Part shown: positions 24,534-44,162 of the stretch, piece by piece
How the letters are laid out: every line of letters begins with the position of its first letter
How positions within the stretch are numbered: the stretch's first letter is position 1
Assembly: GCA_008501735.1 (NCBI GenBank)
Contig: QQUF01000048.1
Coordinates: 59,629-123,628 of the forward strand
Length of the DNA stretch: 64,000 bases
Direction: 5' to 3'
From: Calditrichota bacterium
GTDB taxonomy: Bacteria > CLD3
Notes under the pieces: model-generated
What the model was told of the DNA's origin: nothing
Seen by the model: the letters and a program-made list of their open reading frames with translations, nothing else
Database searches by the model: none
Position numbers and translations under genes: made by a program

Positions 24534-24797
24534 CTATTTGTCAACTCTGTCAACGATTCCGATAATTCCTGCGTCAACGGGTGAAAGAGGATTTTTCATT
24601 GGAACGATTGCTTCTTTTGAAGTAACGTAGAAAACGATTTCACCAACTCCAACTCCTGCAAAATCTAAAGCAACGATTTCATCGCCGATTTTTTTTAGTT
24701 CTGAATTTATTGGCTGAATCAACATCATTTTGTGTCCTTCAACTTCGGAGTGCTTTTGTGTTGCCCAAATATTTCCGACGACTTTAGCTAAAAACAT
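24534..24797 (-). CDS. EutN/CcmL-family microcompartment vertex protein
   Basis: This 87-residue protein has the full pattern of BMC pentamer proteins: 'MFLAKVVGNIWATQKH' at the N-terminus, 'GHKMMLIQPI' in the second strand, 'VALDFAGVGVGEIVFYVTS' in the middle and 'PVDAGIIGIVDRV' at the end. Such proteins cap the vertices of bacterial microcompartment shells. No hexameric shell protein (Pfam BMC) or core enzyme is next to it. The neighbours are a TPR protein and a PaiB-like protein. A candidate cargo, DeoC with an encapsulation-like N-terminus, lies about 18 kb away at 42942-43676. Confidence 0.88.
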   Translation of the reverse strand: MFLAKVVGNIWATQKHSEVEGHKMMLIQPINSELKKIGDEIVALDFAGVGVGEIVFYVTSKEAIVPMKNPLSPVDAGIIGIVDRVDK

Positions 24798-26998: not shown

Positions 26999-27763
26999 AT
27001 GAAAATTCCTAAAGTATTTATTTCATATTCACACGATTCTCAAGAACATAAAATGTGGGTAATGGATTTGGCAACTCGACTGAGGAATTTTAGTGTTGAT
27101 GCAATTTTAGATCAATGGGAACTAAAACTTGGAGACGATTTACCTCATTTTATGGAAACTAATCTTGAATCATCGGATTATGTTTTAATGATTTGTACCG
27201 ATAATTATGTAAAAAAAGCTAATGCAGGAAAAGGAGGAGTTGGTTATGAAAAAATGATTGTTACTTCAGATTTAATGAGTAGAATTGATTCAAACAAAAT
27301 AATTCCAATTATTCGACAAGACGGAGCACATAAAGTTCCTACATTTCTTAAAACAAAACTTTTTATCGACTTCTCTTTGAATAATGATTATGAATCTAAT
27401 TTCGATGAATTAGCTAGAACAATTCACAAAAAGCCATTGTTTAAGAAACCAGAAATTGGAAACAATCCATTTGTACCTGTTGAAGAATTAAGACCTGAAA
27501 AAACAAATGATTTACTATTCATCATCATGAAAGAAATCGTCAGTAGGTATGAGAATGGAGCCACAAGTTTTCTTTACTCCTCTTCGCAAAAAAGTTTTGA
27601 TATTTCAAGGATATTATTTGATATTAACATGACCAAAGCAGGAAGTTTAGGTTATATCAAACGCTTTAGTCGTATGAATGATTTTGGTGAATATCAAGAT
27701 TTAGTTGGGTTAACACATAAAGGGAAAGTATTTGCGATTGAGCAAAATTTAATCAAGAAATAG
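26999..27763 (+). CDS. SEFIR/TIR-domain protein with unknown C-terminal domain
   Basis: The 254-residue protein opens with 'PKVFISYSHDSQEHKMWVMDLATRLR', the start of the bacterial SEFIR (TIR-like) domain. 'DAILDQWELKLGDDLPHFME' and 'YVLMICTDNYVKKANAGKGGVGYEKMIV' follow. Glu84 in 'GYEKM' sits where TIR NADases have their catalytic Glu. The domain ends near residue 145. Residues 165-254 form a separate region ending 'LVGLTHKGKVFAIEQNLIKK', which could be a small winged helix or sensor, of no family I know. Its codon use looks more AT-rich than that of its neighbours. A phage-defence or signalling NADase role is possible. Confidence 0.75.
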   Translation: MKIPKVFISYSHDSQEHKMWVMDLATRLRNFSVDAILDQWELKLGDDLPHFMETNLESSDYVLMICTDNYVKKANAGKGGVGYEKMIVTSDLMSRIDSNKIIPIIRQDGAHKVPTFLKTKLFIDFSLNNDYESNFDELARTIHKKPLFKKPEIGNNPFVPVEELRPEKTNDLLFIIMKEIVSRYENGATSFLYSSSQKSFDISRILFDINMTKAGSLGYIKRFSRMNDFGEYQDLVGLTHKGKVFAIEQNLIKK

Positions 27764-40731: not shown

Positions 40732-41460
40732 TTATTTTTCCTGTGTATTTTCATCGTTTAAGAATTCAAATATTTCGCCAACACCAAATTTGTCGGTAAC
40801 TGTCTCTTTAAGAAATTCTAATTTTGTTGTTTCAATTATTTCTTGATAAAATTCGTGTAAATATTTGTCTGAAAGCAAAACCTTACAAATGTTTGGCTCA
40901 AGTTTGTTATTAATTTTTACTTTTTCTTTGAGGATTAATTTGCCGTTTGTTGCTTTAAGAAAGGCTTCAATCTCTTTTTCGGGGTAATTCTCAGGTTCAA
41001 TTTTTCTTAATAAAAATGTCGTGATGTTTTCGAGTGCGATTGTGTTTTGTCCGTGAAATTTTGGACAATCAAATTTCCAATCTCCGAAAATGATTTCTTT
41101 GTTGTGGTTTGGAGCTAATTTTTCAAGTTTTGCGGTGAGTTGCTTTTTGTCTTCTTCAAACTTTATTTCGTTACCTTCGTCAGGGTCGAAAATGATTAAG
41201 ATTTTAGAAAACTCGTTTAATGCTTTTTGATATTGCTCTCTTGTGAGGTCATTTTCAAGAAGAACACCTTCTTTAGAGTTTCCAAGTAAAAATTTGAAAG
41301 TAAAATTAGAGTTTGTTAAATTTTTAATTCTTTTGTTTTCTCTTTGGCAGTATTCGTTTCTACCAATTTCCTCAAGTCCATAAATTTTAAAAAGGTAGTT
41401 GTAGTAAAAATATAAATCGTGAACTCCCTCTAAGACCAATAAGATATTTTGATGGTTCAT
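40732..41460 (-). CDS. TOPRIM-like protein (OLD/AriB-like effector candidate)
   Basis: The 242-residue protein starts 'NILLVLEGVHDLYFYYNYLF', with Glu11 and Asp15 where TOPRIM nucleases have their E-x-x-x-D, and has 'KILIIFDPDEGNE' with Asp92 and Asp94 for the metal-binding DxD. The C-terminal part is helical and unassigned. A TOPRIM nuclease gene placed directly after an AAA ATPase gene is the layout of OLD-family and PARIS-like defence pairs, but sequence identity to these cannot be tested here. The start is one base after the ATPase stop, and the stop is one base before alaS. Confidence 0.65.
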   Translation of the reverse strand: MNHQNILLVLEGVHDLYFYYNYLFKIYGLEEIGRNEYCQRENKRIKNLTNSNFTFKFLLGNSKEGVLLENDLTREQYQKALNEFSKILIIFDPDEGNEIKFEEDKKQLTAKLEKLAPNHNKEIIFGDWKFDCPKFHGQNTIALENITTFLLRKIEPENYPEKEIEAFLKATNGKLILKEKVKINNKLEPNICKVLLSDKYLHEFYQEIIETTKLEFLKETVTDKFGVGEIFEFLNDENTQEK

Positions 41461-41461
41461 T

Positions 41462-42574
41462 TTATCCTCTTAAATCAACTCCTAATTTTTCTCTAACATC
41501 AATCGCCCTTTTTCCTTTGTATTCGTAAGCACTCATTTTGCCATCTTCAAGTTGTGTTTGTAAAATTGTTACGTCATCAATTTTAGCAATTTTAGAGCTC
41601 TGAAAAATGTCTAAAATATCATCTAAAAACTCAAGACTGTGAGTGCAAAGAATTACTTGCGTGTTGTTTTTGTAAATCGCATCTTCAAAAAACTCAATCA
41701 TTAGTCTAGAATATTTAGGATGCTGAAATGCTTCTGGTTCTTCTAAAAGGCAAATTCCATCTTTACATTTTTGCAAAGTTGAAAAAGCCTGTAAAAGTTT
41801 CTTCGCTCCATCTCCTAGATGCATTGCAGGATGTCCATAATCTTCAAAAGTGGCAAAAACAACATATTCGTTAGATTGATTACCATTTTCTTTAAAAGGT
41901 TTTCTCATTCGGAAATCTACGAGTTTCTTTAAGGAAGGAGTATTTTCAGAGAAAAGTTTTACAAATTTCTGAGTTTGATAAGTTTCTTCAAATTTTTCAA
42001 AGATTGCGTTTAATTCTTTCGTCTCGTTTAATTCCTTTGTATCAACAAAATGAACCTTGTTATCAAAATCCAGCCCTTTTTTAGAAATGAAGTTGTTTTT
42101 AGAAACATAAATATATAAACTTTGTCCATCAAAAATTTTGATAAAGTCACTTTCACTATCATATAATTCATCTAAGTCATTTAATAAATTATCTAAAAGA
42201 CTATTCTCATCTGGGTTAGAAACATAAATTTCTAAATTTCCAGATTTATTGACAAATTGTTTTAGGTGAGATTTCGAATTTAAAAATTTAGTCGCAAAGG
42301 TTAATTCTTTTGTTGGGTTAAAAGTACTTATAAGTTTTTGGTCTCCAAGATTTCCCCTTCTATTTAAAATAAAATCTGTTGCTAGGACTAATTCATTATC
42401 TGATGTCCAATGAGGATTGTTGGGTGAAACCGTTCCCAAATAAATACTTTCCAAAAGCGTTGATTTTCCCGAATTATTCGGACCGACAACAACAGTTAGT
42501 TTGTTGAAGCCTTTAACTTCGGAAGGTTGAGTAATTCCTCTGAAATTGTCAATTTCGATTGATTCTAAGTGCAT
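41462..42574 (-). CDS. AAA ATPase (OLD/AAA_15-like)
   Basis: The 370-residue ATPase shows Walker A 'GPNNSGKST' at 31-39, a signature-like 'LGDGAKKLLQ' near 253, Walker B 'ICLLEEPEAFQHP' near 274-286, and an H-loop 'ILCTHSLEFLD' near 308. This is the ABC-type head of the SMC-like/OLD family, with an insert in the middle in place of coiled coils. It is tied to the TOPRIM-like gene by a one-base gap. Its N-terminal motif 'IDNFRGI' is typical of the family. A defence ATPase that senses an invader and releases a nuclease is a reasonable hypothesis. Confidence 0.78.
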   Translation of the reverse strand: MHLESIEIDNFRGITQPSEVKGFNKLTVVVGPNNSGKSTLLESIYLGTVSPNNPHWTSDNELVLATDFILNRRGNLGDQKLISTFNPTKELTFATKFLNSKSHLKQFVNKSGNLEIYVSNPDENSLLDNLLNDLDELYDSESDFIKIFDGQSLYIYVSKNNFISKKGLDFDNKVHFVDTKELNETKELNAIFEKFEETYQTQKFVKLFSENTPSLKKLVDFRMRKPFKENGNQSNEYVVFATFEDYGHPAMHLGDGAKKLLQAFSTLQKCKDGICLLEEPEAFQHPKYSRLMIEFFEDAIYKNNTQVILCTHSLEFLDDILDIFQSSKIAKIDDVTILQTQLEDGKMSAYEYKGKRAIDVREKLGVDLRG

Positions 42575-42941: not shown

Positions 42942-43676
42942 CTAAGAGCTTACAATCTTGATTCCTGCACTTGCACCGATTCTTGTTGCTCCTGCGTTTA
43001 TCATTTTGATTGCATCTTCGCGAGTTCTGACTCCACCGGAAGCCTTAACGCCAATTTTTGGTCCGACGATTTTTCGCATTAACAAAATGTCTTCTTCCAA
43101 AGCTCCGCCTGTTGAGAATCCTGTCGAAGTTTTGACGTAATCGGCTTTTGCTTCGGCTGAAAGAATGCAAGCCTGAATTTTTTCTTCGTCAGTCAAAAGG
43201 CAAGTTTCGATGATGACTTTTACTAAAGTTCCGTTTGCCGCTTTGACAACACCTTTAATGTCTTCAAGAACCATTTGGTAATTTTGTGATTTCAAAGCAC
43301 CAATATTGATTACCATATCAATTTCAGTTGCTCCGTCAGCGATTGCTTGTTTCGTTTCGTCCATTTTTGAAGCGGTTGAAGAAGCTCCAAGCGGAAATCC
43401 GATTACTGTGCAAACATCAACTCCTGTTCCTTTGAGAAGGTTCGCAGAATGTTTTACCCAAAATGGATTTACGCAAACTGAAGCAAATTTGTATTCTTTC
43501 GCTTCTTCGCAAATTTTGGTTACTTGCGGTTCGGTTGCATCAGGTTTTAGAATTGTGTGGTCAATGTATTTTGCAAGATTCGATAAGTCAGGTTTTTGTG
43601 ATTCTTGAGGAGAAACTACAGTTGAGATTTCTCCACTAAAAATTTCTGAAATTACTTGTGAAACTAAGTCAGGCAT
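42942..43676 (-). CDS. deoC: Deoxyribose-phosphate aldolase with N-terminal extension
   Basis: DeoC cleaves deoxyribose-5-phosphate to acetaldehyde and glyceraldehyde-3-phosphate. The aldolase begins near residue 30 with '[16 protein letters not shown]', has '[11 protein letters not shown]', '[12 protein letters not shown]' and the Schiff-base lysine in '[15 protein letters not shown]', and ends '[13 protein letters not shown]'. The extra N-terminal part is an amphipathic helix ('[14 protein letters not shown]', hydrophobics at 4, 5, 8, 9, 12 and 13) and a flexible linker, as in encapsulation peptides of microcompartment enzymes. It starts two bases after the 65-residue gene. Confidence 0.93.
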
Positions 43677-43678
43677 TT

Positions 43679-43876
43679 TTAATCTCCGTGAGTTTGCACT
43701 TTTTGTTCTTGTTCTAAAAAATCTATTATTTCTTCTGCCAATTCTTTGGCTTTTGTGTCGGATTCACAGACGTAACACAAACCTCTGTCTTCTTCCAAAG
43801 ATTCATGAAATTCCATAAATGAATCCATTAGCAAATCCGCTAATTTATTTTTCATTTCCGAATTATTCGTTTCCAT
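43679..43876 (-). CDS. 65-residue acidic protein of unknown function
   Basis: From the ATG at 43876 the product has 65 residues, acidic, with '[51 protein letters not shown]'-like composition; no longer run is quoted because no motif is certain. The CxxC-like 'CYVC' is too isolated for a zinc site. The reading frame is open further upstream to 44059, but that region belongs to the gene at 43863-44162, so I take the internal ATG. An alternative ATG lies at 43855. The gene overlaps its upstream neighbour by 14 bases and precedes deoC by two. Confidence 0.6.
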
Positions 43877-44162
43877 ACCACTCTTTGAGCTGTTTTGCAA
43901 TTTCTTTAGCTTGCTTTTCGCTAGAAATATTGAATTGACTTTGCTTCCTGTAATCATCACCGACTTTTTTGAAACGACGAATTGAAACTTTCGGTGCGTT
44001 ATAAACTTCGTCTTTCGGATTGTATTCTTCGTAAAGAAACATAATTGTTGTCCAAGCACCTTTTGAAAGCACGTGTTTTTCTTTTTCTCTTACTTTGAGG
44101 ATTCCATTTTCTTCGTAGTTAATGGTAAGTTTGTCGATTAATTCTGCTGTTTTTGAAGCCAT
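43863..44162 (-). CDS. 99-residue conserved-looking protein, unknown function
   Basis: The 99-residue protein is basic and compact, with 'LSKGAWTTIMFLYEEYNP', '[39 protein letters not shown]'. It has no signal peptide or membrane segment. It reads like a small nucleic-acid- or protein-binding fold with beta strands followed by a final helix. It is the first gene of the deoC-alaS run, starting about 225 bases from the divergent miaE. I cannot name a family. Confidence 0.65.
   Translation of the reverse strand: MASKTAELIDKLTINYEENGILKVREKEKHVLSKGAWTTIMFLYEEYNPKDEVYNAPKVSIRRFKKVGDDYRKQSQFNISSEKQAKEIAKQLKEWYGNE

Follow-up and report, generated by a model that had tools for sequence, protein, structure and literature searches.

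A deoxyribose-phosphate aldolase with a putative targeting peptide and a candidate dispersed microcompartment in Calditrichota

The deoC gene and its N-terminal extension

The DNA analyzed here is a stretch of 64,000 nucleotides from a Calditrichota bacterium (the window), in which deoC, a minus-strand gene at 42942-43676, encodes a deoxyribose-phosphate aldolase (DERA) preceded by extra N-terminal residues. A first-pass annotation of the window had proposed that these residues load the enzyme into a bacterial microcompartment (BMC), and our results support this DeoC-based reading. The features concerned are as follows.

42942-43676, minus strand: deoC, deoxyribose-phosphate aldolase with a putative N-terminal targeting extension; 244 aa; matches TIGR00126
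43684-43687, minus strand: Shine-Dalgarno motif GGAG, 7 nt upstream of the deoC ATG, by direct reading
43635-43676, minus strand: encapsulation-peptide-like amphipathic helix, residues 1-14; AlphaFold2 helix 5-13; aligns with the DeoC N-terminal helices of intact loci of the sugar-phosphate utilisation (SPU) type
43578-43634, minus strand: linker, residues 15-33, predicted to be disordered; residues 15-25 have a predicted local distance difference test (pLDDT) score below 50, and no secondary structure is assigned to the linker up to residue 34; not conserved in relatives
24534-24797, minus strand: BMC-P (EutN/CcmL) shell vertex gene; PF03319, 88.8 bits; no BMC neighbours; one of three in the genome

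The TIGR00126 deoC profile covers residues 34-242 of the protein (E 6.8e-91) and leaves 33 residues in front of it, close to the 30 or so first estimated. Ordinary DeoCs lack these residues, and in comparisons with solved DeoC structures the alignment starts at about residue 28-33. Since GGAG stands 7 nt before the ATG and no second Met occurs inside the 33 residues, the extension is probably translated. The AlphaFold2 model displays a helix at residues 5-13, a disordered segment at 15-33 and a confident TIM barrel (mean pLDDT 90), and the hydrophobic residues of the helix (L4, V5, V8, I9, I12 and F13) occupy the very positions read from the sequence beforehand, with the linker following as described. 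Encapsulation peptides consist of an amphipathic helix of about 15-20 residues and a flexible linker, a layout found here as helix 5-13 and linker 15-33, and the extension is best read as a docking tag that should load the aldolase into the organelle. Amino-acid composition by itself is modest evidence for such a helix, since 0.5% of shuffled versions of this extension reach the full hydrophobic pattern and 4% the helical moment. The helix appears to be more than chance because it is conserved in the aligned DeoC of the nearest relative, where the linker is not, and because extended DeoC accompanies BMC genes, as detailed below. As for the aldolase domain, D120, K182 and K211 do not vary among 22 aligned homologues, and we take them, from knowledge of DERA, to be the catalytic residues.

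Shell and enzyme genes scattered over the genome

The shell genes that were to be looked for as a check on the proposal are present in the window genome (G000; 4.14 Mb, 59 contigs, 100% complete), which holds one BMC-H and three BMC-P (PF03319) genes at four separate places, all unlinked. The BMC-H gene is found on contig C48 between aspS- and purE-like genes, and the BMC-P copies on C23, C42 and C57, the last being the EutN gene already noticed in the window. Each of the four shell proteins is complete in length, and genomes of the same family and class retain the protein families concerned. BMC-T is absent, the BMC-H gene being the single PF00936 match genome-wide. The candidate enzymes are scattered as well. 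One of two RpiB genes (pfam02502), on C23, has a BMC-type N-terminal domain with the pattern 'LIS..V....LLTPLAKDA', and the aldehyde dehydrogenase (AldDH; pfam00171) whose presence was in question turned out to be an acetylating acetaldehyde dehydrogenase encoded on C15, TIGR02518-like, its 601 bits lying below the cut-off of 620. Of the phosphotransacylase activity that was also to be checked, Pta is present, on C42, whereas the search for PduL gave no match in G000 or in its relative G001.

Seven of these dispersed genes have one-to-one counterparts in a single compact locus, L384 of genome G193, which unites RpiB, a DeoC with an encapsulation peptide, BMC-P, an AldDH with a C-terminal helix, BMC-H and two more BMC-P genes, together with an actin-fold (EutJ-like) protein and a small 'T.KDI...LTELA' protein. 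Identity between G000 and L384 amounts to 83% for BMC-H, 62% for DeoC, 50% for RpiB and 47% for AldDH, and each of the three G000 BMC-P proteins picks a different L384 BMC-P as its best partner (34, 56 and 49% identity), the best of the three for the window copy being L384:7776-8102. The Anaerolineales locus L117 contains RpiB, DeoC, BMC-P, BMC-H, BMC-P and BMC-P in that same order. SPU microcompartments are defined by DeoC together with RpiB (Axen 2014, PMC4207490; Sutter 2021, PMC8217296), and by this published definition L384 and L117 are, judging from their genes, SPU-type loci. To all appearances, the scattered genes of G000 are an L384-like SPU-type locus taken apart.

The N-terminal domain of the G000 RpiB resembles that of the RpiB in SPU locus L182 and a short open reading frame in L384 and L117. 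A short domain with the pattern LIT..V.......ILTPLA.D.A.EL.V and no Pfam match (L192:11957-12220, L382:1607-2005 and L384:7376-7777) is fused to RpiB in G000, whereas in compact SPU-type loci a small gene of its own encodes it.

Co-occurrence of extended DeoC, shell genes and partner enzymes

Among 80 DeoC loci surveyed in named genomes, all 11 in which the DeoC has an intact N-terminal helix, L109 and L175 aside (L117, L129, L134, L143, L145, L156, L167, L174, L182, L183 and L188), contain both BMC-H and BMC-P, and the unextended loci contain no BMC genes. Three others, L109 from a relative of the window's organism and L175 and L184 from Ignavibacteriales, have the extension or its linker and no BMC genes nearby, L175 being a short contig. 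When whole genomes from across the phyla are considered, BMC-P is found in 13/13 genomes with an extended DeoC, these three included, versus 9/36 without, and three or more copies in 12 of the 13 versus 1 of the 36 (Fisher 1.8e-9). The same association holds within the Ignavibacteriales-containing class (that of G071/L175), in which 80 of 149 genomes were tested: of the 42 genomes with an extended DeoC, 41 have BMC-P, usually in three copies and in most cases not linked to deoC, versus 2 of the 38 with a plain one (Fisher 3e-19). Of the two plain exceptions, G227 (L385) has a separate BMC locus and its own 40-residue DeoC extension, and G173 a separate four-gene set, while the sole extended genome without BMC-P, G247, has a DeoC nearly the same as in positive genomes such as G207. 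The DeoC of BMC-free relatives is thus mostly plain, the opposite of what would have spoken against the first-pass annotation. The near relatives G001-G008 show the same pattern as G000, with DeoC not found in G005.

On the DeoC tree, the extended-with-BMC label requires 10 changes, at least 5 of them forced by well-supported branches. The peptide was defined for this test by extension length, because a strict hydrophobic pattern missed real variants such as IEKIIADL; this rule lets in 6/71 genomes without BMC genes, mostly through a chance upstream Met.

The partner AldDH follows almost the same distribution. A full-length TIGR02518-type enzyme occurs in G000 and in 6/6 tested genomes of its class. 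In the Ignavibacteriales-containing class it is found in 36 of the 38 genomes whose DeoC is extended, with two more partial, while none of the 36 with plain DeoC reaches such a score (460 bits at best). Its C terminus consists of a linker and, at the very end, a strongly conserved helix, G-[ST]-G-I-S-E-E-E-[IV]-x-x-I-I-x-E-F, exemplified by GSGISEEEVERIIREFKKS and, in the sister family, by LSEKEIDKIVEEFIRSRK; the corresponding end of the G000 protein is GTGKLTASQLEKIRFGFLEKMGF. This arrangement has the layout of a C-terminal encapsulation peptide, and the helix is a likely targeting tag. Given this tag and these co-occurrence data, DeoC and AldDH, unlinked enzymes of one two-step pathway, would both be tagged, and they covary.

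A link to deoxyribose comes from deoB (phosphopentomutase), which lies within a 1.5-kb flank of the BMC-P genes in 22/29 BMC-P loci of the Ignavibacteriales-containing class (L299-L327) and likewise flanks BMC-P genes in L237/L263 and L250/L265; two examples score 460-471 bits against TIGR01696. The product of DeoB, deoxyribose-5-phosphate, is the substrate of DeoC.

A proposed deoxyribose-phosphate metabolosome, its alternatives and its relatives

Computation shows directly which parts are present, that they are intact and how they occur together across genomes, and these results make it highly probable that DeoC is the signature cargo of a BMC whose genes are dispersed over the chromosome, an exploded SPU-type metabolosome that is most likely what the FRAG microcompartments of Ignavibacteriales and related lineages are. 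The N-terminal helix of DeoC would dock the enzyme to the inner face of a shell assembled from one BMC-H protein and three BMC-P proteins. Deoxynucleosides would yield deoxyribose-1-phosphate, to be converted by DeoB to deoxyribose-5-phosphate, which lumenal DeoC would cleave into glyceraldehyde-3-phosphate and acetaldehyde. The co-encapsulated, C-terminally tagged AldDH would turn acetaldehyde into acetyl-CoA before it escapes, and acetyl-CoA would enter central metabolism or become acetyl-phosphate via Pta, while the RpiB-family isomerase with its BMC-type N-terminal domain would act on the pentose-phosphate feed. In this scheme we infer the encapsulation, the in vivo substrate, the direction of flux, the use of Pta and the role of RpiB.

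Several observations weigh against this proposal. In G000, deoB was not located and PduL and BMC-T are absent, which leaves substrate entry and cofactor recycling without an explanation; the shell and encapsulation are deduced here from genes; the C terminus of the G000 AldDH matches the consensus helix imperfectly; and the similarity of the G000 RpiB N-terminal domain to those of the SPU loci is weak. Moreover, the DeoC core of G000 and G001 (42942-43577; L007) falls outside the SPU DeoCs, in a poorly resolved position near unextended Bacillota DeoCs. The usual C-terminal Tyr is missing from both proteins, and these two genomes may have exchanged their enzyme and acquired the tag anew. Finally, phylogenetically independent pairs (4 supported) do not reach significance, being too few for power, and the co-occurrence statistics consequently overstate the independent evidence.

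It is unlikely, in our estimate, that the compartment is real and loaded with DeoC while its main substrate is another, for example acetaldehyde derived from ethanolamine or aromatics, in which case DeoC and RpiB would be cargo of secondary or biosynthetic importance, perhaps working toward condensation. The AldDH is indeed close to a general acetylating acetaldehyde dehydrogenase (PDB 5j78), and the BMC-T-bearing second locus of the sister family, described below, would fit; however, DeoC and RpiB are common to all published SPU subtypes, and most loci of one class have deoB next to the shell vertex genes, although no genome-wide search was aimed at other aldehyde-producing BMC signature enzymes. 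More improbable still is a reading in which the extension is an ordinary helix that serves oligomerisation, stability or regulation, and in which no working organelle stands behind the scattered shell genes, these being relics: the shell genes are singletons between housekeeping genes and the helix alone is modestly unusual, but the four shell proteins are full-length with their families kept in the same family and class, the DeoC helix is conserved where its linker is not, and the extension, AldDH and BMC-P genes are gained and lost together.

The sister-family locus (L189:8469-16549 and L190) combines BMC-T with RpiB, tryptophan 2,3-dioxygenase, an RnfC/PduS-like protein and a hydroxymuconic-semialdehyde-type dehydrogenase, and possibly represents a microcompartment whose function has to do with the breakdown of tryptophan or aromatics. 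It was set aside as the core of the G000 compartment since G000 has no BMC-T gene.

Of the known systems, SPU is the closest. G000 shares with it a DeoC-type aldolase (the window DeoC also matches PF01791, one of the marks of SPU), an RpiB-type isomerase, an aldehyde dehydrogenase, BMC-H and BMC-P, and catabolism of DNA sugars was proposed earlier for SPU (PMC8217296). Clustering in one locus, another mark of SPU, is not found: the genes for DeoC, RpiB, AldDH, BMC-H and the three BMC-P proteins are single and lie apart across the contigs, BMC-T and PduL are lacking, and RpiB carries a fused domain which L384 and L117 encode as a gene of its own. In its dispersal the system resembles FRAG, described in Ignavibacteriae and related phyla as having no defined locus, genes at up to six places, a BMC-P triplet and no obvious signature enzyme (PMC8217296); the four unlinked places and the BMC-P triplet of G000 agree with this, whereas the unlinked tagged DeoC with RpiB and AldDH would supply the signature enzyme that FRAG lacks as published. 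The FRAG identity that we propose is set by the published description rather than by shell-protein hidden Markov models or trees. The likeness to the Haliangium type that had been suggested at the outset extends to the BMC-P triplet and single BMC-H and to an unlinked DeoC with an encapsulation-peptide-like N terminus in some genomes of the Haliangium ochraceum (HO) type, a published precedent (PMC8217296). In contrast, H. ochraceum has three BMC-T genes and G000 none, and the assignment to that type was rejected for this reason.

As for the surroundings of deoC, a conserved 99-aa protein of no known family is encoded at 43863-44162 (minus strand) and also lies beside deoC in the nearest relative (L201:9071-9397). 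Directly downstream, at 40732-42574 (minus strand), an AAA_15/AAA_21 ATPase and a small partner gene resemble the PDC-M38A/B and AriA (PARIS-like) defence pairs, and a related ATPase occupies the same place in L201. Elsewhere in the window, a single-gene bSEFIR-type defence protein is encoded at 26999-27763 (plus strand; PADLOC E 1.7e-82, Pfam SEFIR/TIR_2), and an Rfam search of the window gave no matches.

While the chemistry of SPU has already been described, the dispersed version, its assignment to FRAG, the genome-scale support and the link to deoB appear to be new; a literature search, which left most subscription papers and supplements outside it, found no earlier work that connects FRAG with tagged, unlinked DeoC and AldDH. 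With somewhat less confidence, we consider it probable that the FRAG of Ignavibacteriales and related lineages are deoxyribose-phosphate metabolosomes built from dispersed genes and held together by targeting peptides only, the peptide being kept or regained despite an apparent exchange of the DeoC domain. In the 2021 BMC catalogue FRAG has no signature enzyme, and the hope expressed there is that its function will emerge from ecology; tagged DeoC and AldDH would offer a specific and testable answer, the oxidation of acetaldehyde set free from DNA sugars. Such an organelle would have no need of an operon, and BMC cargo may then be findable genome-wide through targeting peptides and co-occurrence instead of gene neighbourhood.
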